From Bryoerythrophyllum caledonicum (taxonomy: Eukaryota > Streptophyta > Bryopsida > Pottiales > Pottiaceae): a stretch of DNA of 64,000 nt. The notes beneath the pieces were generated by a model, which worked only from the letters and a program-made list of their open reading frames with translations, made no database searches and was not told the DNA's origin. Numbering within the stretch: the stretch's first letter is position 1; every line of letters begins with the position of its first letter. The position numbers and the translations under genes were made by a program. Below are positions 21,448 through 48,232 of the stretch, one piece after another. The DNA is taken from NCBI GenBank assembly GCA_963971425.1, contig OZ020521.1:11921519-11985518 (forward strand), written 5' to 3'.

Positions 21448-22379
21448 TTTAACCCCTACAGGACCAGAGTCTCCTTCGGGGGGATTTCTGATCTAGGCAG
21501 GTTCCTAAAATTCAAAAAAAATCCTTTTTCTCTGAAATTTTTATTCTAGATTGCCTCTGATAAGAGCTTCGTGGACATATTTTTATTATATTTTTTGGAT
21601 TTGTGGTTTGAAAGTTAGTACCACTTAAAGCCAAAAGTGGGGACACCGGGCACCTCCAAATTTTTTGACAAAAGTTTCTATTGACATTGAGATTTTTCAC
21701 ACATATAAAGAATATTTCCTTTTCTGAAATTTTTCCAAAAAAAATCTTGTCATTAGTGTAAAAAGGCATTTAATTCCAAGTCAAACATTTTCACACATTG
21801 TCGAGCAACGGGGGAAAAAAACTTCATCTTTTCTACATAAAACCTAGAGATCTTCATATTTTTCACTTTTTATTTTTTCAACAACAATATGTGGTGAAAA
21901 CCTTCTTATTGACTGTTTGGATTATCATTTGAATACATACGTAGTTCACAAAATAATAATACGTGAAATGGCAGTTTTTGAACTTCCACTCCTCGCACGC
22001 TTGTTTTGAATATGCTACACCCCTTTTTTACCTCTAAAAATTGGTGTGTTGGGAAATAACATCATGCTAAACAACAATAAAAGATTTAGACCTTATACAA
22101 CGCAAAAATTTGATACAAAGTGAAGTCAAAGTCTGCTGATCTACTCAACCCAGGGAAGAAAATGAACCATTGTTTTGACTTTAAACACTAAAATCTATCA
22201 ATCCGTGCGGTGGATTGCAACCAAAATTTAACAGCATGTTTATATAGAAGTCTATTTTAAGATCTTACGGTTGAAAATCCAAAATTCACTTTAAAATGTG
22301 ATTTTCATGTCTCTTTTTGGCAGTGGCAATTTTGGACTAGTTTTAGAGCGAAAGTGGTCATGGTCCTTTAGGGGTTAAA
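21448..22379. mobile_element. Non-autonomous inverted-repeat element (TTTAACCCCTA family)
   Basis: About 932 bp bounded by a 19-bp near-perfect inverted repeat, TTTAACCCCTACAGGACCA at the left and the complement of TTTAACCCCTAAAGGACCA at the right. The interior is AT-rich without coding frames. Words such as CCTTCTTATTGAC and AAACCTAGAGATCTTCATAT recur in opposite orientation near 40.1 and 50.5 kb, showing a dispersed family. Confidence 0.65.
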
Positions 22380-22489
22380 GAGATCCCTAGGTTTTACCCC
22401 ACCCCCCTTCTAGAAGATTGTGCTACCAAAATAAAGAGATCCCTTTAGAGCCCACGACACCCAAGGTGATCTCTGAATTTTTTTAATCT

Positions 22490-27835: not shown

Positions 27836-29409
27836 AAAGCTTGGGAAGGTTCATAGGGTGTCAATTTTGTTCTCTTTAAGAATTTATTGTAGATGAGTAC
27901 TTGTACAAGCTTTGTGGGAGTATTTTTTTCTAATCAATAATCCACCATTTGATAAAATAGATGAGTTACTCAAAGCAGTTTTGCAAGAGGGTGGGCACTT
28001 TGAGCAATTTGTAGAGTTACTCGAATTTTTTTGAAATATTGTACACAACAAAAAAACAAAACTTCCTCTCAGATTTTACAAAAAATGCATTCCTATAGTA
28101 CAAACATTTCACACCAAGAAGAGTCAAAGTTTTTTGGTACGATGTGAATAAAAACTTTTATTCTTCCAGAGAAAATGCTTGTATTTTGAGATTTTGCACT
28201 TTCCAGTATTTTGTGTTTTCTTTACCGTTTGGTTTGAGATTTTATATCAAAAGCCCATTTCTTCTAAATGTTGTCGATGCAAAACATTCAGTATGTCCTT
28301 CTAATGTTCAATCATATTCTTATGACTAGACTTAAAATGTACAATAGCTATAGATATCTTTTCTATAGTACTTAAAGAAGTATTATGTACTATGTATTTC
28401 TAGGTGTATTAATTTATAGGTGTATATCTACAAAGTATAAGAATATATATATTGTTCTAAGTACCTAATATATTGTTGTGACATACGTAGACAAATGAAA
28501 GAGTGACGTAAATGAATGTGTGTATTGACCATATATGATGGCAAGTGTTGAAGTTATGGATTTTGATGATGTGAGTAATGCATCATTGGGCTCATTGTTT
28601 GATCTACTTGTATTTAGAACACCTGAGGTTTTACAAGTACTATGATGTAGTTCACATCAATCTTCAAAAGGAATGAGCATCAATGAGGTGGTTGAAATAA
28701 TGAGCAATGGATTTGACTTTGTACATGGGACCCTAATGTTGGAATTTGACATGGTAGATTTCAAAACAATGCACACGAGTTAATGATAGTGTTGAAAGTT
28801 GAGTCTATTTTGCATGGCAATCCAATAAGGCCATATTCTTTCAAATGAGAAACAATGTGAAATTTGAGACAAAAAACCTATTATGTTGGAATTAAAACTT
28901 ATAAAAAGTAATCGCAAACTAGGACATACTTTGTAAAACATAAGAGAAAACATCTCAAATTCTTCAAACGAACAACATGATCAATGCAATACTCCACAAT
29001 AGAATTACACATATATACTATTGATAGATCAAAACACAATTTGGAGTACTATATTAGTCCTAGAGGATTGAATGGGGTACAAAACCATAATAATAAAAAT
29101 ATATTTCAAGGTACTGTTTACCAAACGTACAAGGATAAGTAAGTATCTATTTATAGTACTCACAATTTAAACTATTGTGTCTATAACTAAGTGGAAAATT
29201 ACTATAGTAGCTTCTACAAATCCAAAACTGCAGTATCATTTTTACTAAGACTCGGACACATTTGATCCAACTCCACGTGCCTTTAGAAGCAAAGCTTCTT
29301 GCGCTTTCACTTTTGCATATCCAATCATGATTTCTTTCCTCCGGGAGCAAGGTTTACACTAATCATTCGCTTCCAATTGCTTCACTTTTCCCAGATTCAG
29401 AGGTGGTAG
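27836..29409. other. AT-rich intergenic DNA, no gene seen
   Basis: Only short frames. It could contain the left boundary of the large element to the right, but I found no terminal repeat. Confidence 0.5.
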
Positions 29410-30138
29410 CTAACATTCAGAACTATCACGCCTAAAACCATCACCTACTTGAGAGGATATTGACTTCCGACGATATTGTGCACATGCAGAATCCAGACGT
29501 CTTCGCTTTACACCCAGTGGCTGAGTTTCCAACTCGCGTGAAGGAATAGGAGGTTTTCTAACCCGAAAAGCACCTTGAGATCGAGTACACTGAAGGCGTC
29601 TTTGCTTAACGGCGGGACAAGTAGGCTTGAAGGGCGAACAAGAAGACAGAATAAGATGAGAAGAAATAAGCTTAGCTTCCTGCACTAGGTTTAGATCAAC
29701 TACTTCATCGACATAGAGCTGTCGTTGAGGAGCACAATCTGCTTTAGGCTCTACAAAAGAGCACATCCGCTTGAGAAGAGAAGGGGATGCCATAGGCGTT
29801 ATCCCAGCCCTACGCTCTCGAGGGCTATCCACAACACCATCATCGACTTTTTACTTGGAGAAGTCCATGATAGCAGAGGCAGCATCAGCTGCAGTGCACA
29901 TAAGATACGGCTTCGATTGAAAAGACTGGGCAATACCTCCATGAAAAGACCCAGAGTACTCAGAAAACGAGTCAACGTTGGAGGGTAGTTTACTACAATC
30001 ACTCTTGCAAGGGGTAGGTGTGATGCTAGCCTCCACGACTTGCAATGAGATTGATAACAAATCAATCAGAATGCTAGCCTCCACGACCTGCAATGAGAAA
30101 TCAATCAGAATGACAATTTTACGTTGAAAGTAATCCAA
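29410..30138 (-). pseudogene. Basic C-terminal tail frame, unrecognised, one in-frame stop
   Basis: One reading frame runs from 30138 to 29410 with a single stop at 29851-29853 (after AIMDFSK). The second half is rich in Arg, Ser and Pro (VKRRRLDSACAQYRRK) and looks disordered, with a possible nuclear localisation signal. Near 30005-30115 there is a short tandem duplication of GCTAGCCTCCACGACTTGCA-like sequence. It lies just downstream of the phosphatase remnant and may be its last exon. No function assigned. Confidence 0.4.
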
Positions 30139-30460
30139 CTTATCGTCGATCCGAGGATAAATAGTAAACTTGAACCATCAATAACTATTTGACACAATCC
30201 ACTGATCAATATCGGCTCGACCCAAATATAACAAAGAAGCACGACACATTATTAAATATTATGCTTGATCCAACGATAAATAAACGTCTCCACAAATGAA
30301 TTTAAGCTCACGTGAAATGACTATAGGAAACAATAACAATGTTACAGTACAAAAAAATCAAGTCCATATATTCACCGATGAAAAAATATATTTTCAAAAT
30401 TTACGAAGGAGTTTTTTTCGTCAAAACATACCGCCTACTTTTATACATTAATAAACACAG

Positions 30461-31226
30461 CTACAATCTAGCAGATGATGTAGCAACATCTGGAATCACG
30501 TACTCCACACCAAGGTTCTTAGAGGAGAGATCCATTCCATTTGTGATATACTTCATCAAAGGACTACTAGCCGCCAACGGCGGAACGCCAATGCGGCTGC
30601 TATTAACAAAATCCTTCAACTGCCTGACAGGGCATTCAAAATCCAAACGACGTAGCCAAGGAAGAAGTACTTGAATCAGGAACTTATCATCCTTAGCTCC
30701 GCGTCGCTATGGATGAAGGAAAATGGCGTTCCCAAAATGATTACAAATGCTCTTCTCCGGGCTGTCATCTATAAGAAGAGTGTTGTCGGAGTTCATGACA
30801 CCCAAGTCATCTTGACGGTCAAATACTAAAGAAGACAACGTTTTCAAAAAGATCATCTTCTTTGAATTAACCTGAGTCATCAAAAACTTATTTCGTGATG
30901 TCTCAATCTTCTTACAACTCTCCTGACCAAGAACGAGATCCGGAGGAGACATATCACGGAAGAGATAATTTGCAATCTCCTCTATAGTGGATTTCATCAT
31001 TGAGCTCGAGATGACAACAGAGTTCGAAAGTTCTCTGGTGTTCACCAGAAACTCACGCACGCTAGGACGAGTATACATAGCTTTAGGACCTATGTACGCG
31101 GGAACGGTGGGCAAAAACTCCGCCCGACTCCCGGAGCACCTCGACAAGGCAAGTGCATATGTAGCCTCGCACAAGATGCCATTTAAATCCAGGACAATAT
31201 TCAGCCACTTCAAAGGCCGAATAATC
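30461..31226 (-). pseudogene. FCP1/NLI-type HAD phosphatase domain, one premature stop
   Basis: After a plausible acceptor (TTGTCCAG), the frame reads IIRPLKWLNIVLDLNGILCE, a HAD motif I with nucleophile Asp and Asn in place of the second Asp. It continues with PSVREFLVNT, VVISSSM (motif II), and NTLLIDDSPEKS (the acidic metal-binding motif). FLHP is then followed by a TAG where related proteins as I remember them have Trp. The same frame continues to 30461 through LPWLRRLDFECPVRQ and NSSRIGVPPLAASS. FCP1-like domains dephosphorylate Ser/Thr residues on protein partners such as RNA polymerase II. The domain is well preserved apart from the stop, which suggests recent loss. Its place in a transposon-like block is unusual. 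Confidence 0.7.
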
Positions 31227-31688
31227 TGGACAATAAACTGTAGGCACATTCCTACGAGGACCATCCTGGTATAGGACAAACACACAAAACAATCAACGGG
31301 AGGAAACAGATGAAAGTACCTGATGAAATGCAGATTGAACAACATGAAAAGGAACTGTCACTGATTGCATGAATTCGACTCCACATAGCAACTGCTGGCA
31401 AACTTTTCCATTCCGAGGCTTCAGGGCAAGAGGACGGTGAACAATGTCATCCAAAGTCATCTGAGAAAACAATTGAGTAAAATTGAATTGTTAAACAATT
31501 CTTTAAATTATCAACAGAGTGGTTTTACACAAAATTTGTACATTCGTCCTACTATACATCAAAAATTGTAAGGATCTGACACCTGCAAGCCACTACAAAT
31601 ATAGATAAGACCTATTGCGACTAATAATAATTTTTAAAGGAGGCACGGCTATAGCACGTCATGAAACCATGAAAAAAGACCAAAATGG

Positions 31689-33033
31689 CTAGCCAACCTT
31701 ATTCTCCTCAGACGCGCGCAGCCCACGACCTTCAGGTGAGGACTCATAGTCGACTTGATCCTCGTCCACCATGCAGACATCCTCCCATGCCAAAGGTGCC
31801 TTCACGCTAGTGGTCTCTTCGACGCACTCCTCGGGCTGTTGAAGAGGATCCGATGGCGTCGCCAACACCAGAACCTGCTCCTCTGATACCTCTGGACGGA
31901 GCATCGTGTTCGTCGTCCACTGATACCTCTGGATTTTGCAGTAAGCAATTTATGCTTCTATCCTCAGATCGAGGATACTCTACGGACCCCCTTGTTGACG
32001 GTAATAGCTCCTCAGAATAGACCTATACCTCAGCATTGCCAGCCAAGTCATTCTGCTCAAGACCAGCGGAGGATGGTCTTGCAGTTGGTTCAGAGGAGGA
32101 GCACCGAAGAAATGAAGACGACAAAGGGTCTGCATTATGAAGCATAGAACCAACATTATCCTCAATGCAAGGATAAGTTGACATAAGAGGTGTGACGGAC
32201 AACAATCGACTTGAGGAGACAGAGTGGGTCAATTGAGCGCTTTGAGAAAACATCAAAGCCAACTCCTCCTTCATTTGAGCTTGAAGCTCAGCTCAAAGCT
32301 CTGCCGCCATCCGTTCTTTCTCCGATGCGGACTCCTCCATCTACTTCAGAAGAATAGCCTCCATCTCCACCTGCCTACGGTTAGACGCTTTCAACTAGTC
32401 CAAGATGTCATGCTTCTCTTTCTGCTCCCGAAGGCGTTTGGTTAGAATGTGCCTAAAGTAGTCACCTCCAGGTTCGTACTTAACAGGTTCTCCGAGGGCA
32501 TGGGCTTCACCGGCGGCGTTGAAGAAGAGTGGATCCTGCGACCCGGAAGCTTCATCCAAATCCATTTCCACAAGGGGAGCCGGATTTGCCGACCAACTGC
32601 TTGGAACGGGATCTCTTCCACCTTCGTCATCACTGGAATCCGACAGCAGAATGACAAAATCATTCTGAGCATTCGGTGCTAAATGATCTAGAGCAACCAG
32701 TTCTGTTGGAGGCTCATCCTCAAGACCTCCACGCGGTGAACTTGGGATACGAGATGGCACGACTTCATCACACGCTTGCAAATCGTCATCTACAGCAGTA
32801 GGTGGTGATGATAGAGATGATTCACTGCTAACGTCAATATCAGCACGAGATGGTCCAGCCTCATCCTCGCGAAGGTTTGAAAAATCCACACCTTCACTGC
32901 TCCCATAAGGATTGAATTCCAAACGGTCCTCCGGGACACACCAATTAGATCCAATAGGTGAATGCAGGGAAGGTTGTTGTGTTGGAGACTCCATATCCTC
33001 ATCATCCTCAGGCTGAACCCACCTTGAATCCAT
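31689..33033 (-). pseudogene. Acidic disordered protein remnants, unrecognised
   Basis: Main frame 32395-33033 (212 codons, ATG at 33033) is rich in Asp, Glu, Ser and Pro, with a SDSSDDEG patch and a charged end (KRLREQKEKHDILD). A second acidic frame at 31689-31904 (PEECVEETTSVKAP) follows. Between them frames are broken and a palindrome lies at 32155-32177. They look like exons of a disordered regulatory protein of the large element, upstream of the phosphatase domain in the same orientation. No known family. Confidence 0.4.
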
Positions 33034-33159
33034 TACGGGAGCAGCACCATCGTCGAATCTGCGGCTAGGAGATGAAACTGCTGCAGATCAAGGGGCCGAG
33101 GCAGTTCGTCCTCCGGTCTGCGTGGTTCTGCAATCTGAGTTGCTCCGAGGTGCTGCAAT

Positions 33160-33347
33160 TTATGTGGTCCTGCGTACTGAGGTGTCGCGAGGCGCTGCGG
33201 ATTGTGGAACTCCGGTCATAGACCCAGCATACGCACAATTATTATGAATGAAATCATTCATGTCATACTTATATATCATCTTCGTATTAAACTTGTATGA
33301 CAACCGGTAGTCTTTGTCAATGACCCCGTAGACGACGTTCCAAACAT
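33160..33347 (-). pseudogene. Probable exon of the ParB-like gene (C-terminal)
   Basis: After the acceptor TTCTGCAG, the frame reads DVWNVVYGVIDKDYRLSYKF and then MIYKYDMNDFIHNN before degenerating. It is downstream of, and in the same orientation as, the frame at 33562-33996. The sequence between them contains two palindromes and looks like an intron. Confidence 0.4.
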
Positions 33348-33561
33348 CTGCAGAATACAACATACAATGTGATATAAGAATGAAACGGCACAAGCGCACA
33401 GCATATAAGTTTCAATGAATATGATTTTATCCTCAACCCGAGGATAAATAACTTGTTCTAAGTAAGGCTAGATTGGTGCAAGGGAGAATCAAACATGAAA
33501 AGCATTCGGAAACACATAATCCATGTATACATCACAAGAATTATCAGGATTACATAACACT

Positions 33562-33996
33562 TTATCGGAATAAGTTTATCCTCAAGCCGAGGATAAACTC
33601 AACAATGAAGAGGGAACAAAATACTTTGCTTGCCACCACAAATTTTGAGCTGCAGTATACACCAAATACACGGTCCCCATAGTTGGAGAACTTCGAGATG
33701 AGTTCCAGGTAGAACTCTATCCGCAATTCACAGCCATGGACTGCGTAACATGTCTCTAAGTACTTGTTCTTCTCCGTGTAATATGGTGTGTCCATGGCAG
33801 AATAACATGGTAGCATTTTTTCGAGCAGAGCGAGGGCTTGAGGATGGTCTTTACGAATGAGGAATAGAAGATATACCTCCGAACATTTTGACCTCGACAT
33901 TCCCATGTTGAGCCGCTCGAACGCTGATGGCATGTACGCGGAGGAAATGGATTTGTACTTCTTCATCCATTTCTCTGCATATCTCCGTGCATGCAT
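33562..33996 (-). pseudogene. Fragment of large unrecognised protein, possibly methyltransferase-like
   Basis: 144-codon frame with AFERLNMGMSRSKCSEVYLL and, near the end, LISKFSNYGDRVFGVYCSSK. A Y/F-x-x-x-G-D-x-V segment followed by small residues faintly resembles the SAM-binding end of amino-methyltransferases, which often accompany ParB-like domains in phages and integrative elements. That resemblance is an impression, not a demonstrated homology. The frame differs from the preceding block, so an intron or frameshift intervenes. Confidence 0.35.
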
Positions 33997-34266
33997 TGCT
34001 CTGTCCTGAGAAGAGGTGATCCAAACCGAGACGGCTGGAGTGTTAAGGGTCGGAACCGTCTTCTAGAAGAGCACAGTCTTCATAAAGGTAGAGAAGTATG
34101 GCTCCTCTGCCGAGTCCTCCTTCGATGCCTACCTAGGGACCTGACGAAGGTCAAGTAGTCCAAGAGGCCACTCTTTGTCCTCAGTTGGTGGGTCAGAATA
34201 CACACCAAACTCCATTTTTTCCCCATCGAAGTCCCAAAGCTTAGAAGGACCATCGTGTGGGGAGAA

Positions 34267-34946
34267 CTAGTTCTTCACGAACAAGAATTTTGTGAAGAAT
34301 GGAAGAACATTGGGAAACTTCTCCACTAAGATTGAAGCTCGCTCAACTTCCTCGCATTTGTCATCCGCATGGAGAAGAACTCCTTGTCGGGACGATAGAG
34401 GGGCATGTTGTAGGTTGCAGAAGACACGCGGTGATCTTCCTTCCACGACTTCCACACCTTGTCGTCAACGGACCCGTCTAGTAGTAAAAACTTCAAAGAT
34501 GGGTCAATTGTGATCAACTCTTGCATGACAATGCGCTTCTTCTTCCTGCAATCCACCCAATCCTCGTAATGGAAGCAAGAGCCATGAGCCACGCTCATTC
34601 TTCAGAGAGTAACTTTTGGGTACCTTTGAGCTCGGCCGCTCTCTACTAGGTAAGTAAACAAGTCCCTCAAGTCTTTATCGGTTAGATGTCCCAGCCTCTT
34701 GAAGAATTCGTGGTGGATAGGAGAAACTTTGTTGCCCTTCGACTCGTTATAGGGAGTCATGGTGTTAGGGTTTATAATCTCTCCCCTGCTATGCATTTCA
34801 AGGAAATCCTCCCACAACTTGAAGATGTCATCCGGAAGTGAGATCACCATGATCTCATTTGTCAGGTCGGATGACTTGTTAACCTACTTCCCTTCCTTTG
34901 TTGGATTGATATTCTCGAAGTGGTTGACAATGAGCTTCGAAAACAG
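34267..34946 (-). pseudogene. Central part of the ParB-domain protein, stops present
   Basis: From a clear acceptor (TTTGCAG at 34947) one frame reads LFSKLIVNHFENINPTKEGK, stop, VNKSSDLTNEIMVISLPDDI, continues to YPKVTL, stop, and then runs MSVAHGSCFHYEDWVDCRKK to KLSELQS. It is therefore a single reading frame with two or three nonsense codons. Family unknown. Position and orientation tie it to the ParB-like exon on its right. Confidence 0.5.
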
Positions 34947-35167
34947 CTGCAAACACAAGACAGGATTTGTCAAATCTAAAACATAAAATGTCTGAAGAAG
35001 CATGTTGTCCAATATAAGGGACTCAGATGTATTTTGCAAAGCGGCATTGCAAATATGTATCCTCGACTCGAGGATACAACTCTGAAGGACAACTTAATAA
35101 TGGACTCAGATGTATTTACCGAAGGTTATTGCAAGTCAGTATCCTCGACTTGAGGATACTGCTTAGA

Positions 35168-36556
35168 AGGACAACTTATCAGGTACTTCTCTGTGTCAAA
35201 GACAGCGCCATTCATCCGCGTTGCCCCTTCTTCTTATTGATAACTAGGACGTCCGGAGTTGAGCCAAATTCGACGGCAACTTGAGATCTGATTCCCCCAA
35301 GTCGGTTGGGCATGGTCGAGGTAGTTGGTGTCATTGTAAAACTTTGAGATCCTCTACAACTTCAGAGGATCTTTCAACCATACCACATATGCATCTCATC
35401 GCTACATGTCTCTTTTTCGAGTCTCTTCACAATTTTCACTGTCTTGCAGTCTCTTGGATGCCTCGACACTATACTGTCCGTTGATAAGCATGAACTTGCC
35501 ATCCTTGATAGCCTCCCATGAGATGGGCTTTGTCTTGATTGGCTCCCCATGCTTATTGATTGGACAAATGCAGATCTTCTGGCGGTGATTGACTTCGCCA
35601 AGCTGCACGAGAAAGTCCATCGTGCTTAACACGATGCGTTCCTCCATCCCTCGAATCACGAACTCTGCCTTTGAGACCACACACTGCTGGATTCGCACTA
35701 AATATGAGGACTCGAAAGGAAAGCACCCTCTGCATTCCTCCCAAAACCGGCGCAGTGATTCGGTGATCTTCTGAAAGTCCACCTAAGGGTCATTTCGCGC
35801 TTTCATGGGGGTCTTGGCCTTCGTAACAGTGGATGTTGAGTTACCGCGAGCGATGGGCTTCCTCTTCTTGGTTGACGGTTCCCCTGGCGTCGCAGGCACT
35901 GTTGATGGCTGTCGGAGAGGAGCACAACTTGAGGTACGGGGCGCCGTCGATCCCAAGGGATTGGGCTAGACTTTAGCTTTTCCACGTGCTTAAGTATGTG
36001 GATTGGCTTTGACTGGAATTGGTCGGCCCTCAAATGTCGAGAGCAACAGGTGAATTCGTCCCAATCGCTTGTTAATTTTTTTCGCATCCTCGTTTGTCCA
36101 GGACTCATACTTTTCAAACGCCTCCCTTAGCAACCCCTGACTGTTTCTCAATACACTTTCAAGCAATTCGGGAAAGTCAAATTGACCGAGGGGGGTACCA
36201 ACTTTCACGACAATGGAGTGGCAATGTGGCAGATCAACTCCAGCTTCGTCAAATGCCTGAATGTCGAGAACAATGTACTCCCTCCACTACTACTCAACAA
36301 AAGCAACCCGCTCGTTTCTATTGAGTGGCACAAATGGGACGTCGTCGTTCACCTTGAGCAATACTTGAACGACCTTCCCAAACTTCGAGATTGACCAAGA
36401 CTTGACGGTGTCCTTAAACATCCACAAAGATCCATAGTTCTCCACGACATCGTCTATATACGGAGACGGTGCCAAAGGATTTTCAAACCTCTTGATAAAA
36501 ATCTCACAGGCAGAGTAATTGTAATTATCATCATCTTGCTGAAGTTGAGATGCCAT
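35168..36556 (-). pseudogene. ParB/sulfiredoxin-like domain protein, one frame with several stops
   Basis: Starts at ATG 36556 right after an acceptor (ATATTGCAG) and keeps one frame for about 460 codons to 35168 despite some seven to ten stops. Acidic N-terminus (QLQQDDDNYNY); a helical part (KWNEDAKKINKRLGRI-like, near 36070); a basic NLS-like PSTKKRKPIA near 35870; then the domain: FLVQLGEVNHRQKICICPI, ISWEAIKDGKFMLINGQYSV, EASKRLQ, followed by DAYVVWLKDPLKL and RISKFYNDTNYLDHAQPT. The I-(D/N)-G-Q-(H/Y)-x-V-x-A-(S/A) block is that of ParB-type domains, which bind palindromic DNA and can hydrolyse CTP in bacteria. The role in this plant element is unknown. Palindromic repeats flank it on both sides. 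Confidence 0.6.
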
Positions 36557-36603
36557 CTGCAATATACAGACACACGCATGTGTTAGTTGCAATCTTGTAG
36601 CTA

Positions 36604-37346
36604 TATCCTCAAGGCGAGGATAATTATTGGATAAATAATCCCTTTTAAAAAAAGCCAAGATAACTTTTATCCTCAAATCGAGGGTAACTTTTACATCTTT
36701 GCTTCTAATTTGTGGTACTGAAAAACGGTTGCAATTTTATATGATTTTAGTGCATTTTTGTGAAACCACCTATGGGACTTATATAGAATAGACGCAGATT
36801 GACGAGAGTGATGGATTATTATCAGTAGTAAACAAATACAAATCTTTTATTTTGACCTTTGTATGAATTTTGATTATTTAGTAAAATGATATCACGTACT
36901 CTGATTAGCGCACTTTGACAGAGTTGTTTTTTATAGAAGTTGTTTTAGACCTGTAGTATCCTCGACTCGAGGATAACTTAGAGTTGTGTTTTTAGAATAC
37001 GTGGATGATGAAGTGTTGTATTACTTTCTATGGACTGTTAATGCAGCACAATTAATTTCAAATGTTTTATCCTCGACTCGAGGATAGAACATGTTTTTGC
37101 ATGGTTCGTTTAATCTTATTCTAAACTATTCACATCCTTCCACTAACAGTTTAGAAATGCCAGGCAAGATATCGTGCACTCTATCGGACATGGAGTTTAT
37201 CCTCGACTCGAGGATAAACTACGACTTTAAAATGGTCGTTTGGCAATGTCTGACGTCTTAATTCGTTGGCCTGACACTGCAGAATTGATGGTCTACAGTT
37301 TCAAACGATATAATACATGGAATTTATCCTTGGCTCGAGGATAAAC
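36604..37346. repeat. 19-bp palindromes, central-left cluster upstream of ParB-like gene
   Basis: Six sites in under 750 bp: 36604-36622, 36668-36686, 36957-36975, 37068-37086, 37198-37216 and 37325-37343. Three are perfect TATCCTCGACTCGAGGATA. The 37198 site extends to a 27-bp palindrome with AGTT/AACT arms. This is the densest array in the window and lies directly upstream of the ParB-like frame. Confidence 0.9.
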
Positions 37347-38104
37347 TGCGAGTCCAATATGGTGGTTCCAGCAATGCTCTAGCCATACACTCTGCATCAC
37401 ACTCCTAGAATTGGTGAATTTCGTATTATTCAATAGTAAGTCATTCAGCATTGGCCAGATTTATGAAATGTTTCATACCGCACCTTTGAATTACCAACAA
37501 TGTTGTTGATATGAAATATGTTGTTAATATGCCGTTCGAAGCCTGCTGCACATCAAGTTCATTTGTAAAACGTTAGTTCCATCACAAAGCAGACAACACA
37601 TCCAGACTCAAACTTACAAATGTACACACATTTGACTCCACAGACATAAATAAACACATACACATGGTTTCAATACTGAATATGAAAAGTTGAAATCAAA
37701 AGGCAATCTAATGAACTTACTGGATGCCTATAGAGTAGATGAATCGACACGCTTCCCAAAAGCACACCGCCAGCAAAAAGAGCCGACTTACAAATCCTGT
37801 CGCTCACACAACAATCCCAATCTGATAATTGTTTGTTATACTTATAGGACACTCAATTCTACTTCAACGTCGAAGATTTGCAATGAGTACTTGCAGAATC
37901 GATGTAGGTGAAATGTTTGCAAGACTCTCGAACAAGAATTTATTTCTGTCAGAGCTCACTCAAAACACTGTTTGAACTCCTCGCGATCTAGGAACCTTGA
38001 AATTGCAAAAAAAAGACTGCTTGCAAAACTATCGATCACACGAAACCCTTGCAGAACCTCACAAAACCCTTGCAAAACAAACCTCACATACCCTCGCGAA
38101 ACTA
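37347..38104. other. Upstream region of the ParB-like gene
   Basis: No coding gene seen. Probably first non-coding exons and promoter of the minus-strand gene set of the large element. It is cut on the right by the LINE insertion. Confidence 0.4.
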
Positions 38105-39450
38105 GAAGAAGAACGCCGGTCCCCGAAGGGGGCCGGCGTGAGTAAAGTGTCCGTTCATTCCACCACTAAGTCCATGCCCACCGGGCATGGGTTAGTAGTA
38201 TGGAACTACTTCCCCCTTTCGAGGGTAGACACTATGTACCCAGCAACAAGTAACCAATATCAAAGGACCTTAGGTCCCAAAATGTCCCAGAAGAGGGAGG
38301 GCATGTACGGTGAAATACAAATGCAAGTGTAGATCTATGGAGGGGGGTACGAAGCGTCAGGAAGGGGTTGGTTGTTTTCAAGTTTACGTTTATGTAGGAG
38401 TATCGACATAGCATGTTGAATTGCAATAATGTTAATATTTGAAAAAGTGGTTTTGATTGAAGTGATGGGGATTTTAAATTTCTCTTCAAGGGTTGTCATT
38501 GAGGGAATGAAGGTGGTGGCTCTAGCACCCGCGGTGATGACAATGAGGGGGTCTACTTTCCACCCTAGTGCTTGAATATCATCAAGTAGTGGTTGGTCTT
38601 TATTAGTTTTGTTTGCAATAGTGTCCGGAGAGAATCTATCATTGCAATATGTGAATTCAATAAATTGGATGGTGAGACTAGGGTCTATGTGGTTTGGTAG
38701 GGGGTCTTTGTATGAAAGTCCTCTAACACATAGTAGGTCCGGTTTGAATCTTGCATTACAGTGGCATCTTTGAGTATGACAGATGCATGGTAATAGCCAG
38801 GGAAGGACCGTATTTTCTTGTGGGTTGTCATTAAAGGTTCCGGCATTCATGAGAATGAAACACCGGGATTTGGTTGATGATATAAGTAGTTTACGAATAG
38901 CCCATACGGCTTTGTTATGTCTTTTGACAATTAGTGAGTGTATATGGGGGTTTTGGCACTTGAGTAAGACATGTAGCCATGTGTCCGGGTCCGTGGTGTT
39001 GCAAATCGGACATGTAATTGAAGGGAATCTTTCTATTCCAAAGAAGAGTTGTTTGCGGGCATTGCCCATGTATTGTTCGGTGCGGAATTTGATTAGGCAT
39101 GTGATTTGTGGATCCGTTATAATGGGGTTTTTCCAGAAATTGTTGGATAGTATGTTATGAATGTTTGGGTTGCCAGTCCATTTATCAATGTTGGAGAATT
39201 TTTCTATAAGTTTTTCTAGGTTATTAATATGATCATGTTTTTTGAGGTATTTGTCCAAGAATCGTATGGGGCCTTTATCGGGAGTTTCACCCATAGAGGG
39301 CCATTCATATCTATGAAAGTAATATGGGGTGGCATGGGCGTGTTTGTATGGGTGTTCGGCATTCTTGTGGGTTTTTTCTCTTCCTTCCTTTGCTAGTTTG
39401 TCGGCTTGTTCATTGCCATCGATATTAGCATGAGCTCGGACTTTATGGAG
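38105..39450 (-). mobile_element. LINE copy 3, 5'-truncated, with 12-bp target duplication
   Basis: Flanked by identical CTCGCGAAACTA at 38093-38104 and 39451-39462. The insert begins (5') inside the RNase H domain and ends (3') in the family 3'UTR, with a strong hairpin GCCGGTCCCC/GGGGGCCGGC at about 38114-38136 and a (TTC)n-type tail. Truncated 5' end plus target duplication is the usual outcome of target-primed reverse transcription. The long open frame suggests it is young. Confidence 0.93.
38335..39450 (-). CDS. LINE copy 3: RNase H tail, CCHC knuckle and restriction-like endonuclease
   Basis: Open for 319 codons from 39294 and preceded by the truncated RNase H end (HKVRAHANIDGNEQADKLAK). 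Counting from the first in-frame Met at 39294, a CCHC knuckle uses C95, C98, H108 and C113. R125-H126-N127 follows (VKRHNKAVW), then K184-P185-D186, an acidic E213 in FIEFT, and K232 in the NKxQPLL segment. This succession matches the restriction-like endonuclease module of R2-type and Dualen-type LINEs, with a longer P-D to acid spacing. Copy 2 shows the same module downstream of an AP endonuclease and RT. The fragment has no start of its own, so expression is unlikely. Confidence 0.75.
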   Translation of the reverse strand, partial: LHKVRAHANIDGNEQADKLAKEGREKTHKNAEHPYKHAHATPYYFHRYEWPSMGETPDKGPIRFLDKYLKKHDHINNLEKLIEKFSNIDKWTGNPNIHNILSNNFWKNPIITDPQITCLIKFRTEQYMGNARKQLFFGIERFPSITCPICNTTDPDTWLHVLLKCQNPHIHSLIVKRHNKAVWAIRKLLISSTKSRCFILMNAGTFNDNPQENTVLPWLLPCICHTQRCHCNARFKPDLLCVRGLSYKDPLPNHIDPSLTIQFIEFTYCNDRFSPDTIANKTNKDQPLLDDIQALGWKVDPLIVITAGARATTFIPSMTTLEEKFKIPITSIKTTFSNINIIAIQHAMSILLHKRKLENNQPLPDASYPPP

Positions 39451-39462
39451 CTCGCGAAACTA

Positions 39463-39848
39463 CACAAAACACAATGACAACTTCAGTTTCTACGCACGCA
39501 CATACACGTGCACACACACGCACTCACAATAATACACTCACTTACACACACAACCAAACACACACCTCACAGACACTCACTCACTCGCCCACACAAAGAA
39601 TAATTGCGACACCGAAAAGGAGGACAGTGAAATGGCGGCAGCGGTTTTAGCTGTGCATTCCTTTCTCGTTATCCCATGACCGTGCGATGGATATCATCCG
39701 TCGCTCAACGGTCGCAACGGATGATTGACAAATCATATTCAAGTGGAAATTTCATGGAAATGGTTCGTTTGTTCGTTTAACACTTTATGAGAAATAAAGA
39801 AACTTTCACTTTTTTTACTTCATTTCATATGCTTCCAAAATCACTTTT
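39463..39848. other. CA-rich simple sequence and spacer
   Basis: About 39480-39600 is rich in CACACA and CACTCA words, followed by unremarkable sequence. No gene. Confidence 0.6.
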
Positions 39849-40580
39849 ATAAACCCCTAAGGTACCGTAACATTTTAACACCAAAAACCCTCCAAACTTT
39901 TTGGATTATAGTGCAATGAACAAAGAAAGAAATAATAACTTTTATTTCTAGTTTTGACCGTAGGATCTCAATTAAGACTTAAAAAGTAAACCACTCACTA
40001 AATTTCATAGATTTTGACTGCCCACATTGAAAGATTATAGTGTATGAAGTCAAGAAAATGGTTCAGTTTCTATCCTTTGTTCCATGGTCAATAAGAAGGT
40101 TTGCACCACATATTGTTTCGGAGAAAATAAAAAGTGAAAAATATAAAGATCTCTAGGTTTTATGTTGAAAAGACGAAGTATTTTTTGATATCTTGCCAAC
40201 ATAGAGTGACAATGTCTCAAAATGTTACACTTGGGTTAGTACTAGTATGCTACTTGTTACTAAAGTCAAGAACTTTTTTGGGACAGTACAAAGGAAATTT
40301 TCAATACTTGCGAGTATTGAAAATCTCACATTCAATAGAGTGTCCTAGCAAAGGTGTCTCGATATGCCTGAGGTGCGTGCACCCCCCATGTGAAAATCTA
40401 AACCTTATACCCGTTTCATCAAATCTCTAATTCAAGAAAAAATTGTTCTCACTACGGTCTAAGTAATGCCCTTCTACAGTAAAAAAATTTAAGAGGACTT
40501 CTGGAAATTGACACCATCGGAATCCGACTGAACTTTCAAACAGCCCATTTTGACACTTCGTCCTTTTAAAGGTGTTAATG
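39849..40580. repeat. Dispersed non-coding repeat (family of 21.45 and 50.05 kb)
   Basis: Begins ATAAACCCCTAAGG and shares, in the same orientation, TGGTCAATAAGAAGGTTT, CACCACATA, and TCTCxAxxTTTTATGTT with 50.5-50.6 kb. It shares them in reverse with 21.8-21.9 kb. Ends are eroded. Confidence 0.6.
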
Positions 40581-43500
40581 AATATTCTTCAATGTGAATA
40601 ACTTCCAACATTATGGGAATTTTTCATCCATTCTATACAATTTAGCAAGATTGATTCGTTCACTACCAACTATTGCACTGTGTTGCATTATGAACATATT
40701 TTGGCAAATTACCAGAATTTAAGGATAAAATTGGGTGTAATATCATGGATATCTATGTAATTTAGAATGTCTCTCATATGTACATATAAATCACATAAAA
40801 AATCTATTTTGAATGTCAATCTCCAAATTCAAAAGAATTTTGTCCTCAATGAACTAATTCAATCTGTCTCTAAATATAACTTAATAACATTGAGTTAACT
40901 CGGTGATTCATTAAAAATTGTCTTGCAATTTAATAACATTCTAGAATACTTTTATAAAATAATTGAAAATAAAATGTATCTATTTATAAAATCCATCTCA
41001 AAATCCCTAAAAATATATTTTTGACTAAAAATTTAAGTAAAGTTCCCTACGTTTTCTTTCACAAATTCAACCCCCAATATTTCCATCACAGGTTTCCCTC
41101 TAAAACACTAGGCGGCAGCTCGTGTAGCTCTTTGGCAAGTTGGCAACCAGCAGAGCGAGTTTGGAAGCGTGATTGGTTAGAAAGCCCCTCCAATAGCACC
41201 TAGTCAAATGCAGGTAGCAGGTAGCCTCCAAGAAACATCAATTTGACTTCTTTGATCATAAAAAAGCCTTTACAAACTTTTCCTAGTATCACTTCTGGAA
41301 TTTTTCAGTCTACTGCAAAGTGTACGTAGAAAAGTAAAATAATGTTCATATTACCTTTTTCAACCATTTGATCTTTTTGTATGCTACTAATTCTCCGTTC
41401 TCACAATTTTTTGTACCACTCGGGCGTAGAGATTGGAAGATTACAGTGTTTGATGTGAAAAAGATGCTATAATGCCAAAACACTAGTAATACCCTCCACA
41501 AATTGTATTTGTCATAAATATAAAAAGATTGTATTGTTTCAAAAAGACATGCAACATTTTTTTTTAATTAGGATACAAATTTTATAGTTATCATAAGTAA
41601 ATATTTTTACAAAAAAACTGAAATAATGGATAATTCTTTGTTACAACAAAAAAACTCTTGACAATTAAATTTTTTTATTATGCATACAAATTATTAGCAT
41701 ACTAAACCGACTTTCATTAGTTGAATGAAACCAAAATCTATAATTTAGAAGTGTGCAATATTTTGGAAGCATAGCATCTTCAAGATTCACTAGTTCAATT
41801 TTTTGTTTCTTTCGCATATTTTAACAAATTGCTATGCTTGATGTTTATTCATTAAAAAATTTAAAAAAATAGATTTCTTATGAATCTTTATTTTGGTTCT
41901 TAAAAATGACCTACTATTTTATGCTTTAAAATTTGATCATCAAGTACTTAGGGTAAACAATGTTTTAAATTAATTGATAATAAATTTAAACCTTTATCTG
42001 TAAGTCTTGAAGAAGGTGAAATACATTTTAAATTTCATGCATTTTAAACAAAAGTGAAATATCATCTCGGGGTATGCACTAGCAAAAGTTGTAGAAATTA
42101 CGTGCAATTAAAAGTAGGGCCTAATTTATTCATTATGGATTAATATTGAAAAGAGAGCAATACATGTTAAATACACTGCTTTAACATTATGAAACTGTAC
42201 GATTATAGGTAGAATTGCATTAGATTAAATACTTAAGATTTATGTACTCAATACATATATCTTACCATGGAAAAATCTGGCATAGGGACTGAATGATAAA
42301 CTCTAATAAGTATTTGTTGTCTATTTTTCTAGAGCTTTAGCAGCTAACTGTATAGTTTTTATGATCTTTCCATGTGTTAGATGCTTTGCAAATTTGAATT
42401 TGTATACTACAAGAGTACATGCATTTTTGGTTGCACACTTTTCTAAACTATTTAAGTACACCATATGCTTTGATTTCTCCCAGGAACTCTAGAATCTTGA
42501 CTATAAAAACTTTTAAGACTCTTGAAATTTGTTTTTCAACAAACATACACGTTTTTGTAGTGTTTGCGTTGTTTGGATTTGTTTCTGCATTCATAACCTT
42601 GTTTGGATTTCGTTATTTTTCTTCAATACATGTGTTTTGAACGTTGCTTTGAGATTGCTATGGACTTTCACTATTATGCTGAAGTGGTAAGAAGATTACA
42701 TATAAACAATACGAGGTACATTTTTAATGACCCAATGAAGAAATGATGAAAACCTATATGGTACAAACCCTCACAACGATTTACCTTTAAAATTTCAAAA
42801 AATACCATGTCGTGTTATCTTTTCTACTAGGTAAATAACCCTCCAATAAAGACTACATTACTCACGTGTATACAAATTTCAAGAGAGAATGCCCCCCCTA
42901 GAATAACCTTTTTGGATCTTGCATATAGGAAGTCATATTAAGTGAAAATGTATTTCTACTTCTTTGCAAAAAACTCTACGTTTCTTGATTTACATTTCCA
43001 TTGAAAATTAGTTTGATGATTGTCACTTTCTCAAAGTGACTTTTAATTTCAACTATTTTTTTTTTCGGTTTTAGTATATAAATTTTGAATAAAGAATTTT
43101 TTACAATTTGAGTTGAATATTTCATATTATATGTGCTCAGACTAGCCATTAAGTTAGTTTGACTTTCTTGTTTGAATAAAGTTATTATTAATGATATATT
43201 TTCCTTTAATAGCAATCAATATAACAAGATTTAGACATCTTTTAAAATCTAGATAACTATAGGATATTTATAATTGATATTGGTATCATGTTTTTAGTTT
43301 TCTATTTTGGTGCAAAACATAATTTGTAACCTTTTTGTAAGGAATTTTTTTGGGAGAAAAATAAGGTTATTTCGTAGATTTTCTATAAAATTAAAGTTTT
43401 TCTCACTTTTATATTTTGTATTCTGAATAGTAATTAAATTTTGTTTTCTTTTTATTTCAAAAAGAATAGTAAAACATATTAAAAAGATCAAATATTTTAA

Positions 43501-43780
43501 GTTGTAAAATTTTTGTTATTCAAATTATTTTCAATTACATATTAAGGTCATTTTATAAATTTAATTCAATTTATTTTTTTATCAAAAAAAATATATTCTA
43601 AAAATAGTTTTTAATGTTGTTTTAATTATTGGAAAAAAACTAATTTTCAATTTACAAACCATAAGGAGATCCTATTTTTAGAAGAATTTTTCATTTGCTT
43701 TGTATTCAAATGATTAAGATTCATAGCTAATTTTATTTTGTTTCATTGGGGTCGGTTGCCTTCTTAAATTAGTGTGACCC
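40581..43780. other. Long AT-rich stretch without genes
   Basis: Very AT-rich on both strands, stops in every frame, no recognisable repeat or gene. Confidence 0.6.
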
Positions 43781-45235
43781 CGATACCGAGAAATGCTCTT
43801 TGTCAGATGTAAAGTAGTGACATTATTAAAGTATATTTGTTTCTCGCCAGATAATGTTGCGATTGAAAATTTCCTTTCCCGCCCAGCTCCGATTTTTGTG
43901 CACGGCTCCGCTCATGACTTTCATAATTTCAGTTCAAGAAAGTCATTTCTTTCTCTCACCTCTCTAGTCATCTCTGGAGTTCACCTCGGCTCCCTTGTTC
44001 GTGCTTCAAGATCTTGCTTCTTTGCAGTAAGATATTGTATTTGTCGATATTGTTGAAGGGTTTTTATGTAGAAGTGTTAGAGTCCGTGATTGTGTTTCTT
44101 GTCCTAGGATATGCTAGTGTCGCACTCCACATTAATCCGTGGGGCAGTTTTTGTATGCTCTTCTTGTCAAGGCTGAAGCCATTATGGTTTTTACTGTTTT
44201 GTTCTCCGACTTCCGTTTTCGGTGTGAAGTGCACAAAGAGTGAACTTTGTAAAAATGTTCCAAAAATTTTGGGATTACTGTAGCATTGGGACCATCATTG
44301 AATATTGTATATCTGTATAAATTTCTATCGTCGGGTCAAGGATAACAATATTTTGCGTGGTTGTATTAGAGGGCTATGTAACTGTCTAGTTAGTTTATAT
44401 TCCATCAGATGTATCCTTGACTCCAGGATAAAACTTAAAGTAAAACTATTCATTACCACACGTGAATAATAAAGTGTAAACTGATCATTGAGTATAATAA
44501 AATGTGATAGTTATTCTCGAGTCAAGGATAACTCATCTTAATTTTAATGCTATTAAAAAAATCTGAAATCCAAAGTAATCACAGGAATGCTCATTCAATT
44601 CGTAAGTATGATGCTTATTTGTATAATCCTTGAACCAATAAGATTGAATATATTTAAACAAGTTTTTTTGATTCCATAATAGTTTCTTATAAGGTTATCT
44701 TCGAGTCGAGGATAAATGCCTTAAATCTTATGATACACAAATTGCATAACAAAGATTAATTTCAGATTTCATCTTTTCTATGATTATGCAATGGTTGTGT
44801 CTTTTTTGATACAATCTGTTTGTAATAATAATTTTCAGATTATCCTCGAAGTGAGGATAATTTGGAGCGTCCTCATTGAGGCTACAATGATGTCGTCAAT
44901 GATATATTCCAGACATTTATGTTTAATAGGATGTTTTCAGACGGCAACATTATAGCGGTAGAGTAATGATGACCACAATTTGTTTGGTGTGTTCTTATGA
45001 TTATTTAGCTTGTTCTTTTAGAGAACAGTTTTATGCTTGATGTTTTCCTAGAGTCAAGTAGATATAAATACCCGCCTAAGACATTGACAAATCCAATTGA
45101 TGAGGGATTATCCTCAAGTCGATGATAATCAATATTTCATACAGTGTATTCCCTATTCTTTGAATTTGTGTTATGACAATTTTTCGAACAATTTCCTAAT
45201 GATTACTTGATCCCTTTGAATGTGATCTTTTGTAG
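43781..45235 (+). other. Probable 5' leader and promoter region of the transposase gene
   Basis: Base composition rises at 43860-44010 (CT-rich, TCTCTCACCTCTCTAG), like a promoter or first exon. The stretch ends with a good acceptor (TTTTGTAG) directly before ATG 45236. The palindrome cluster lies in the presumed intron. No other coding sequence seen. Confidence 0.4.
44326..45130. repeat. 19-bp palindromes, right cluster upstream of transposase
   Basis: Six degenerate sites at 44326-44344, 44412-44430, 44512-44530, 44696-44714, 44841-44859 and 45109-45127, all keeping the 7+5+7 spacing. They occupy the 0.9 kb before the transposase frame starting at 45236, mirroring the cluster upstream of the ParB-like gene. 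This group is more diverged from the consensus. Confidence 0.85.
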
Positions 45236-48232
45236 ATGGAGGATGCGTCATATGATAGAGGTGTTCGAGTGCGACCAACCTTGCCTCCAGGTGTTGCTGC
45301 ATGTGAGGGTATTCCTCGAGCATCTTGGTTTTCAAAGCACGTTGTCCTTCGAAACCTGTTAGGGGCTGATGTTGGAATTGGACTGTGCCAGAGTGTTGAT
45401 TCTAGTTTTGTTCCTGAAACTGGTGGTTAGCCGTTTGGAGATGATCATGTTGCGATTCTAATCGTCGAATCCTTCAATGAAGATGACATTCCTCTGAATT
45501 GGATGTTCGCTCTCCGAGCATGGCCAATTCGACACGTCTTCCTCCGTCATATGAGTTTATATGACCAAGAGCAAACAAGCATTTACAACGCTGCTCTTAA
45601 AGTATTTCGTCGCGGACCAAGAGTTGGTCTTTGACAGTATGAAAGCAATTGTCAGAGGGCAGTGGATCATTCTCCATCGAAGAAAGAAGTATTTCTTACT
45701 ACAGAGTCGATAAACTCTATGGCAAGCACCGTCTGTTGTACCGAGGAATTGTACGCAACGATTTCCACGGTGTATAATTTCGGTACTTTGCTCCCAAGTT
45801 CATCGTGACATTCGAGGTGTTTATTTTCGGAAACATGTTTTGCTTGATGTGCAGAGGCAGATGCATATGGATTCCACTCGGAACCATGTGGTGACGCTTG
45901 ATGGAATTGATGTTTGCCACGATGCGTGGTGTACTATCATGGGGTCAGCCGAGCTACATTTTACTGGTACAAAAGTGATGCAAAGGATGAAGTGCGAGTC
46001 GGGCCACATGGCAATACAAGTACAAAGAAGCCCCGCACTTATACCCTTCAGACTATTGCTACTTTGCACAATATACTTGATGATGCTGATGATCATAGTC
46101 CTAACAAGACTACTACACTTGGCACTGGGAGAAGGTCATCTCTAAACATCTTTCGTCCTCCTTTCAGTGGGGTGCAGTGCTACTCAAAGTGAATGTAGTG
46201 AATGCCAGATTTGGCCTCAATCTAATATCCTTGTCAGGTCTTAGTCGAATTCGAAGCTCTAAAGTTGAACAATACTCCATAGATAAGCCTGGTGACAACT
46301 TTGCTCGCCAGGCTTCTCTGTGGAGTATTGCAACCAACTTAAGCAATTAAAGAAGGCTACCACACGAGGATCCTCCGCATATCAAATGTGGAAAGTCAAA
46401 TTACAGTTACATCAAGCCTCTCAACAGACTCATCGTATCCTATATTATGGGAACCAAAAGAACTCAGAGGAAAATCCAGATGAGGTTGTGTGCATCATCC
46501 ATGATAAAATAGACCACAGCAAAACAACATCTCTCTATTTTTCTCATAAAAATAAAGCAACGGAGTCTTTTATGAAACTCCCTGTGGCTGTAACTGGAAT
46601 GATTGCGCATGGACATAGAGATGTTCGCTATGCGCATTATAGTCTTGACATCTTTCCCACCGACTCCAATCACACTGTTGGATCCATTGCTAAGTTATTT
46701 TGGGACTTAGAGAGACCCCCCGTGTATTCCTCTCGTGAATTATTTGCAGGAGGGAGAGCTTTTCCTCTATTTGAGGCAATGCTTGTAGATGCTAATGTAT
46801 GCCTTGGATCTCTTGTTGTTCCACCAATTGAATCTCTTCCAACAAAACAATTGCCACCAATTCTCCAAATGCAGTTGGATAATGCCACATGGGACAATTA
46901 GAATAGATATTTGTTTTCTTTCTTCTCCCTCCTTGTTCATATGGGTATTTTTTGTGAAGTGTATGTCAACTTCTTGCTTGTTGGTCATACTCACGAAGAT
47001 ATTTATGCAATGTTTAGGAGATGGAGTACCAAACTTAAGTCAAACAGCTATCCAACGATCCCACTCTTGATGAAGTCATTCATAAATGCTCAGGTGAAGC
47101 CAGTCATACCACATCTCATTGAAGAGGTGCCTGACTTCAAGGGCTTTTTAGAAGGGTATTTGTGTGTTGGCAAGGAAGCCCTTATAGGTCATACGAAGGG
47201 CCAACAATTCAAGTTTTACAGTGACTCAAATGGTTTGCCAAAGACGTAATAAACACCATATTCATTATATTGGGAGATTGTGAGCCTCCCAATTTAATAC
47301 GTATGTTGCTCTTGAGCTCTAAAATGTACCCACTATGCACATTCAACTCGAGTCGAGCTGAATGTGCACTAGATCAAAATCATGGAAATCTCCCAATATG
47401 ATGAATATGGTGTTAATACAAAGTTCTTTGTATAGATAGGGATTGGTCGCCAATGGAGAATGGAGGAATTCAACTTTGGAAACTAATGGCGGATGGTAGG
47501 CCAATATTGCCTTGTAGATAGCCGCTTCGTCTCATTCCGCTACGTCATGAGAATTATGATGAGGTTTTGAAGGGCATCTCTGGGTTTCTAAGTCTTTGGG
47601 AGTCTATGGCAAACGAGGATCACTCAAGTGAATACAGGAGGAAGAATGAACATATTATGTACTATTGGAGGGGTGTTAAGGCTGCTCTCGACGTGCCATT
47701 GGAAGAATCGCCTTCCCTACGAGAGGGATTTTGGCCACTATTTAGATACACTCCATCAATGGTGGATGAATATGAGATTGACGATACGCTAAGGGAGGAT
47801 TACGCAGAAGATCCTCCATTCATTGGACAACGACGTCATTGTCCCCCCCCCATCGTTTTGGCTTAGTAGAGATGTGCACGAGGGTTATTTGCTTGTGGTA
47901 CGTCTTGCTGATAGAGATGTCCGCCCATTTTGGATTGCCTTAGCGTTGACAAATCCGCATCCGGATTGTGAACATTCTCAAGGGATTAAAGTGCAATACT
48001 ACAAACCTGCATCCATGCGTCATGTGAGTCCGGACACATACGAAGGGTGGGATTCTACTCATGGGAATAATTGGGTCAAAGAAACTGAATCTGAACCAAC
48101 GTAGGTGTATACCGATTGTATTATAACTGCTTGGAAACCTAGGTTGCGTGGAAACATGAGCTCCTCTAGGCCCAAAATTCCAAAAACTCAGGTGGACATC
48201 ATCAAGGCATCTTTAGCTGAATATTAGATTTG
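45236..48232 (+). pseudogene. DUF7869-type (KDZ-like) transposase, broken
   Basis: ATG follows an acceptor. N-terminal part 45236-46192 has stops but keeps one frame, including VCHDAWCTIMGVSRATFY and GPHGNTSTKKPRTYTL. Main catalytic part 46320-47249: VVCIIHDKIDHSKTT (first acidic residues), SLDIFPTDSN, LQMQLDNATWDN, a TAG replacing a probable Lys at 46899, NRYLFSFFSLLV, VYVNFLLVGHTHEDIYAMF, then RRWSTKL. The D-N and GHTHED-I blocks are the hallmarks of the DUF7869 domain found in large transposon families of bryophytes, corals and oomycetes. A MITE interrupts it at 47251. Downstream, 47567-48104 continues (YYWRGVKAALDVPLEE, FWIALALTNPHPD). The role is mobilisation of the surrounding element; it is inactive now. 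Confidence 0.75.
47251..47414. mobile_element. 164-bp MITE inserted in the transposase
   Basis: Inverted arms AAACACCATATTCATTATAT and its near complement, continuing through TTGGGAGATT, bound an insert at the codons after SDSNGLPKT. Reading resumes with YKVLCIDRDWSPMENGG. The interior has its own palindrome, GCACATTCAACTCG with CGAGCTGAATGTGC around 47337-47367. The target duplication is unresolved. Confidence 0.8.

Follow-up and report, generated by a model that had tools for sequence, protein, structure and literature searches.

The window analysed here, a stretch of 64,000 nucleotides from Bryoerythrophyllum caledonicum (assembly GCA_963971425.1, contig OZ020521.1, positions 11,921,519 to 11,985,518 of the forward strand), contains a decayed copy of a large DNA transposon with terminal inverted repeats (TIRs), 4-bp target-site duplications (TSDs) and two genes arranged head to head: a ParB-like gene on the minus strand and a gene of the DUF7869 family on the plus strand (Table 1). 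Dispersed through these genes are 19 palindromes of 19 bp, which are the main subject of this report. Alignment of copies gave the common ends of the element, which carry the TIR AACACCATATTCATTAAAATGAGACA, and the TSDs, read by eye, are CAAT/CAAT in the window, TGAA/TGAA in copy G2, AGGG/AGGG in copy H and TTAT/TTGT (one mismatch) in copy B. Scored genome-wide, the ParB-like gene is represented by at least 90 copies of its first exon and DUF7869 by at least 96. A DUF7869 match lies within 25 kb of 55 of the 90 ParB-gene matches, head to head in 54 of the 55 and at a median gap of 11.2 kb, whereas circular shifts gave a mean of 1.83 such pairings and a maximum of 8 in 500; the two genes therefore belong to one element. 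The sequence-only reading had proposed a plant transposon-like element carrying a ParB-like protein and dispersed palindromes, and the TIRs, the 4-bp TSDs, the many copies and the ParB fold described below support it.

The gene model for the window was built from open frames, splice-like bases and homology, with no RNA data. On the minus strand it runs from a PH-like/ParB-like exon, whose ATG directly follows a predicted acceptor, through a second exon and a low-complexity tail to an NIF/FCP1-like domain, and this order on a shared strand suggests that the PH-like part, the ParB fold, the tail and the NIF/FCP1-like domain form one protein. The NIF/FCP1-like exon is also present in copies B, C, D, F, G and H; its catalysis as a phosphatase is doubtful, because its first motif is DLNGIL in the window copy and DINGIL in B. 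The window copy is decayed, nine in-frame stops interrupting its first exon, but copies with an open first exon exist, since 30 of the other 89 listed first-exon matches, counted by eye, have no internal stop.

A ParB-type N-terminal CTP-binding fold in this protein is supported by structure modelling of the relative P0001, in which residues 280-410 match that domain of ParB and that domain only. Among 16 relatives none was matched by a curated ParB model of Pfam or NCBIfam at E up to 0.5, nor was the window protein by one of Pfam at E up to 1, and Pfam found no family in P0001, P0004 or P0007. The ParB-type domain noted for this block from sequence alone is supported as a fold in P0001 and not as a match to these ParB sequence models. 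For the second exon, a methyltransferase fold suggested by its sequence was rejected, the model being too poor and without a Foldseek match at E <= 0.001; a profile search against PDB brought up nothing beyond weak matches to Sin3 (E 0.14 and 0.91). The relatives of the DUF7869 protein keep acidic motifs, such as QLDNA and HTH(D/E)DID, which suggest that it is a DDE transposase; DUF7869 was not mentioned in the literature searched.

The palindromes lie between 30141 and 45127, with arms of TATCCTC/GAGGATA around a 5-nt centre. All match at least 12 of the 14 arm bases at that spacing: 10 are perfect, six match at 13/14 and three at 12/14. The sites follow the pattern TATCCTCG-RNY-CGAGGATA. A search allowing up to 3 mismatches recovered 18 of the 19 as 35 strand matches, against a mean of 0.00 and a largest count of 0 in shuffled windows. 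When spacings of 0-15 were tried, the best that any spacing other than 5 gave was 12/14, in two matches (31951 at spacing 13, overlapping a site, and 35348 at spacing 10). The 43,729 bp of the window outside the element contain no site of at least 12/14. The sequence-only reading had described about twenty 19-bp palindromes, always 7+5+7, and had noticed none outside the block; every one of the 19 it placed was confirmed, and the emptiness of the surrounding window with them. Conservation over 58 sites reaches one base further inward on each side, giving an 8+3+8 core, for which only the eighth base is independent evidence, since the sites were picked by their 7-base arms. By the predicted gene model, 17 of the 19 sites fall in introns and two (31959 and 32157) in the coding tail. 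The ParB-like gene has six in its 5' untranslated region (UTR) intron, two each in intron 1, intron 2 and the coding tail, and one before the last exon, and the DUF7869 gene has six in its 5' UTR intron. A reading of the palindromes as intron-only features was dropped on account of those in coding sequence.

Table 1. Features of the transposon and its palindromes, in coordinates of the window (MITE, miniature inverted-repeat transposable element)
Feature	Position	Strand	Remarks
Left TSD CAAT	28823..28826	.	
Whole transposon, 20,271 bp	28827..49097	.	ParB-like gene minus, DUF7869 gene plus; inter-copy homology stops here; ends and TSDs
Left TIR, decayed	28827..28852	+	AACACCATATTCATTAAAATGAGACA in other copies
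Last exon(s) of ParB-like gene	29410..30177	-	approximate; open frames compared by eye with copy B
Palindrome	30141..30159	.	predicted intron before last exon
NIF/FCP1-like phosphatase domain exon	30461..31357	-	Pfam PF03031, E 1.2e-6; limits approximate
C-terminal tail exon, low-complexity, coding	31689..33346	-	two sites inside; limits approximate
Palindrome	31959..31977	.	coding tail
Palindrome	32157..32175	.	coding tail
Palindrome	33428..33446	.	predicted intron 2
Second coding exon, P0004-like	33576..34952	-	homology; match extends slightly into intron 2
Palindrome	33577..33595	.	predicted intron 2
Palindrome	35058..35076	.	predicted intron 1
First coding exon, PH-like and ParB N-terminal fold (as in relative P0001)	35138..36555	-	homology; match extends slightly into intron 1
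Palindrome	35140..35158	.	predicted intron 1, close to 5' splice site
Palindrome	36604..36622	.	predicted 5' UTR intron, ParB-like gene
Palindrome	36668..36686	.	predicted 5' UTR intron, ParB-like gene
Palindrome	36957..36975	.	predicted 5' UTR intron, ParB-like gene
Palindrome	37068..37086	.	predicted 5' UTR intron, ParB-like gene
Palindrome	37198..37216	.	predicted 5' UTR intron, ParB-like gene
Palindrome	37325..37343	.	predicted 5' UTR intron, ParB-like gene
Palindrome	44326..44344	.	predicted 5' UTR intron, DUF7869 gene
Palindrome	44412..44430	.	predicted 5' UTR intron, DUF7869 gene
Palindrome	44512..44530	.	predicted 5' UTR intron, DUF7869 gene
Palindrome	44696..44714	.	predicted 5' UTR intron, DUF7869 gene
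Palindrome	44841..44859	.	predicted 5' UTR intron, DUF7869 gene
Palindrome	45109..45127	.	predicted 5' UTR intron, DUF7869 gene
DUF7869 gene (putative DDE transposase)	45237..48210	+	stops and MITE insertion; PF25273, E 3.3e-40; limits approximate
MITE with similar TIR, TSD AATA	47252..47414	.	inserted in DUF7869 gene
Right TIR	49072..49097	-	
Right TSD CAAT	49098..49101	.	

Across the host assembly (437,360,962 bp) there are 2,245 perfect sites, and a reversed-pattern control gave 0. Counting sites of 12/14 or better, four complete copies of the element have 21 (B), 22 (G2), 16 (H) and 19 (the window copy). On contig C1, in 200 kb surrounding the first sites, the palindromes adjoin the same exons as in the window; they cluster in predicted 5' introns of both genes. 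Four of the first 50 perfect sites listed on C1 seemed isolated; of these, two belong to degenerate copies of DUF7869 and the other two to tandem arrays of 42-bp units. Motif and ParB-like gene co-occur in the host stretches fetched and in relatives, as the earlier reading expected, and the equal density elsewhere that would have told against it was not found, with 0 sites in 77,292 bp of sequence flanking the four complete copies; yet two of the 50 listed sites belong to tandem arrays without the genes in the 8 kb fetched. Scans of IMG/VR gave no matches to the ParB protein, to DUF7869 or to either of two exact palindrome patterns.

The tandem arrays (L026 3482-7844 and L027 3796-5781, at about 112 kb and 1.226 Mb of C1) consist of units of about 42 bp, each with a related palindrome, TATCCCCGGGCCGGGGATA, and showed no homology to the element's genes within the 8 kb fetched per locus. 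This related palindrome has 560 perfect sites genome-wide (reversed control 1), and all of the 100 listed fall within the first 1.52 Mb of C1.

Each copy has two or three of its sites in coding sequence. An open frame crosses both tail sites in copies B, H, G and C, reading them as YPRxED-like peptides; in F and D (three site-like places each) and in the window, stops lie between them. Among residues identical in B, H, G and C, codons are also identical at 48 of 57 in site columns versus 249 of 449 elsewhere, the copies being related and not independent, and a site column being one in which any of the four has a site, so that some non-site codons are included.

The association extends to relatives. 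Contig L001, assigned to a cyanobacterial metagenome-assembled genome but apparently misbinned plant DNA, encodes P0001 and carries five perfect sites, four in the predicted 5' UTR intron and one in intron 1. Of 40 tails of 12 or more residues in which a protein prediction reads on into intron 1 or intron 2, 25 contain the palindrome in translation, a count in which 25 of the 82 proteins had no recognised donor, including P0030, P0076 and P0077, which contain the motif, and in which the automatic donor was placed too early in a few rows. The same translated patterns matched five times in 25,355 residues counted as exon, three of these being unrecognised tails, and not once in the 42,228 residues that make up 120 DUF7869 proteins. 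The palindrome is kept in the same intron between proteins about 40% identical.

In relatives the arms are either TATCCTC/GAGGATA or TATCGTC/GACGATA, both arms having changed together; the host genome has one site of the second type. On a protein tree of 28 relatives the arm type requires two changes, against a shuffled mean of 9.3 with 0 of 500 as low, on what is a quick tree of 28 of the 82 relatives with several weak forks and hand-assigned labels. The first site gave the label of P0007, near matches or a later site gave those of P0013, P0055 and P0057, and P0044 carries no label; the tree omits P0018, whose arms are unlike, P0004 and P0005, which represent the other exon, and relatives with no readable site. 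This pattern fits co-evolution of site and protein. Of the candidate specificity-determining residues, the best-separated columns lie outside the ParB domain, in a comparison that has too few rows and is confounded by the tree.

The symmetric core, the restriction to the element, the codon bias and the co-variation with an element protein all fit a dimeric, element-encoded DNA-binding protein, and the ParB-domain protein is the leading candidate reader because its tree follows the arm type. In the mechanism we propose, the palindromes would be DNA sites kept in the introns and coding tail of the element's own genes, an element-encoded protein, perhaps the ParB-domain protein as a dimer, would bind them throughout all copies, and the bound protein would maintain expression of these genes or protect them from silencing, in the way that VANC acts for VANDALs; by this analogy we infer that the palindromes act in control of the element's own expression or silencing. 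We place the probability that an element-encoded protein, most probably a ParB-domain dimer, binds the sites of this decayed TIR transposon and so keeps its genes expressed or unsilenced at about one half. Clamp loading at the palindromes in the manner of ParB, followed by spreading, is one possible way in which this might work. The fuller version, in which a eukaryotic transposon took over a ParB-type clamp and parS-like palindromes, with loading at dozens of sites, spreading, shielding from silencing and co-evolving specificities, is conceivable but decidedly tentative. Binding is directly testable, because the site and a candidate protein are defined, some copies have kept the first exon open, and the relatives offer a swap between two arm types.

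Several observations weigh against this reading. The structural match stops at residue 410, before any helix-turn-helix (HTH), and later residues are modelled at low confidence; the best Foldseek E-value is only 3.3e-3, and the model of the second exon is unusable (pLDDT, the predicted local distance difference test, 40.9). One relative alone, P0018, has unlike arms, and P0007, placed close to the base of the second group at an open fork, carries both arm types. The arm type would also cluster if intron and protein simply shared their descent, any co-inherited element protein would follow it equally, and the tree test, with its hand-set labels, does not identify which of the element's proteins is the reader. 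Few sites lie in the spacer that separates the two genes and none at the element ends, so that sites are not simply in all non-coding DNA. Finally, the flanks are self-complementary site by site, as would not be expected of a plain protein site.

A host protein might bind the sites instead, either a transcription factor driving the element or a silencing factor repressing it. The clustering in predicted 5' introns of both genes would suit such a protein, as would the half-site GGATA, which resembles plant MYB/GARP motifs, but the arm type tracks the element's own protein tree and the sites are element-specific in the stretches tested, and we regard this explanation as unlikely. Quite unlikely, in our view, is a role in transposition or DNA handling, whether assembly of a complex like that of TNPA in En/Spm or a ParB-like segregation, for which the ParB fold and the many sites per element might speak: the sites sit within genes, and none lies less than 1.28 kb from any TIR end in the four complete copies, unlike the subterminal motifs of TNPA. 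A subterminal-motif reading was rejected on the same absence of sites near the ends.

Flank complementarity and sense-strand G-U mismatches in a first set of 24 sites initially led us to favour RNA stem-loops, which would form in the pre-mRNAs of the element, for instance close to a 5' splice site, and serve splicing or processing. Most window sites (17 of 19) are in predicted introns, and the intron 1 site of relatives starts, by our own reading, mostly about 18-34 nt past the predicted 5' splice site, with one at 81; the 5' UTR intron sites, however, are far from the predicted splice site, and the sites in coding sequence do not suit the idea. Past the conserved core the flanks are hardly conserved in sequence but are self-complementary copy by copy, with 82 pairs at positions 1-3 of 58 non-redundant sites (window, L001 and C1 copies) versus 57.7 when shuffled and 0 of 5000 as high. 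In 24 sites covariation is 0.217 versus 0.138 shuffled (0 of 500 as high) and the innermost pair shows 7 G-U to 2 other mismatches; the sense centre of the 58 reads GAGTC 17 times versus GACTC 7 and GGGTC 5 versus GACCC 5, a possible orientation bias. G-U also exceeds A-C in the flanks (43:32 at positions 1-4, 65:33 at 5-8), probably through base composition, because the excess is largest where pairing is weakest.

The conserved part, by contrast, has no G-U excess over A-C mismatches, such as selection for an RNA stem would be expected to leave: 25:22 in the arms and 30:32 inside them for 111 sense-oriented sites (omitting those of unclear sense, namely D 7888-8811, all of E, F 6312, B 16068-22390 and H 19163-20578), and 11:10 and 15:14 for the 58 non-redundant ones. 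Rfam gave no match at E <= 0.1. Because the arms have no sense-strand G-U bias, the palindromes are likelier to be DNA sites than RNA hairpins, and with 111 sites unbiased in their conserved part and sites found in coding sequence we now consider the stem-loop reading improbable; the self-complementarity of the flanks could possibly arise from quasi-palindrome correction or cruciform formation. Least probable of all, and very unlikely, is that the palindromes are functionless by-products, either small mobile palindromes or imperfect ones perfected by template switching, for while the copy-to-copy variation in flank complementarity and the related palindrome in the 42-bp arrays would suit this, the same intron position between proteins about 40% identical, the codon bias at coding sites and the agreement of arm type with the protein tree do not.

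Other sequences were noted in the window. Between the two genes lies a minus-strand frame (38335-39294, 319 aa, no Pfam match), which we take to resemble the 3' end of a long interspersed nuclear element (LINE), and a dispersed repeat is common to the element's spacer (39.9-40.5 kb) and sequence outside it (50.0-50.9 and 21.4-22.3 kb). A weak endonuclease-reverse transcriptase match at 171-1553 on the minus strand (PF14529, E 3.1e-5, below the curated cut-off) is likely a LINE. Two inverted copies of exon pieces, with intron-like sequence between, lie at about 52.3-52.9 kb (minus) and 60.6-61.2 kb (plus), and are presumably histone H3-like.

Among known systems, bacterial ParB/parS and Noc with its binding sites (NBS) share with this element a ParB-type N-terminal fold and dispersed palindromes linked to the gene, Noc sites being scattered along a chromosome; the setting here is a eukaryotic transposon, and the structural match ends before the HTH. 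Bacterial ParB carries a GERR-type motif, the position of which reads NGQHS in the relatives. En/Spm, with CACTA termini, a 3-bp TSD and subterminal TNPA motifs, also combines an element protein with many short cis motifs, whereas the ends here begin AACACC, the TSD is 4 bp and no site lies within 1.28 kb of an end. Sola2 elements have TIRs and AT-rich 4-bp TSDs (PMC3627910); the present TSDs are CAAT, TGAA and AGGG, and the likeness concerns the ends.

The anatomy of the element appears closest, by analogy, to that of VANDAL21 and its VANC protein in Arabidopsis. VANC21 is described as binding short motifs that lie in introns and in intergenic and terminal non-coding DNA, where methylation is lost locally (PMC5735166, PMC10398659). 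VANDAL21 itself carries several genes and many copies of a short motif, placed in introns and other non-coding sequence (PMC5735166), and the motif type changes between subfamilies alongside the element protein (PMC5735166, PMC10398659), as arm type seems to do here by hand-set labels. The VANC21 motif is a 9-base non-palindrome in same-orientation arrays, whereas here it is an 8+3+8 palindrome that occurs also in coding sequence. VANDALs pair a MuDR-type transposase with the VANC family; this element pairs DUF7869 with a ParB-fold protein. No title or abstract start among the literature matches listed describes such an element, and what we would rate as new is a transposon with its own site array and regulator in which a ParB-type fold takes the place of VANC. 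If the ParB-fold protein binds the palindromes, a parS-like system would be at work in a eukaryotic genome, on a transposon with at least 90 gene copies, and this element would join the VANDALs as a second plant transposon that combines an array of matching sites with a sequence-specific regulator of its own.
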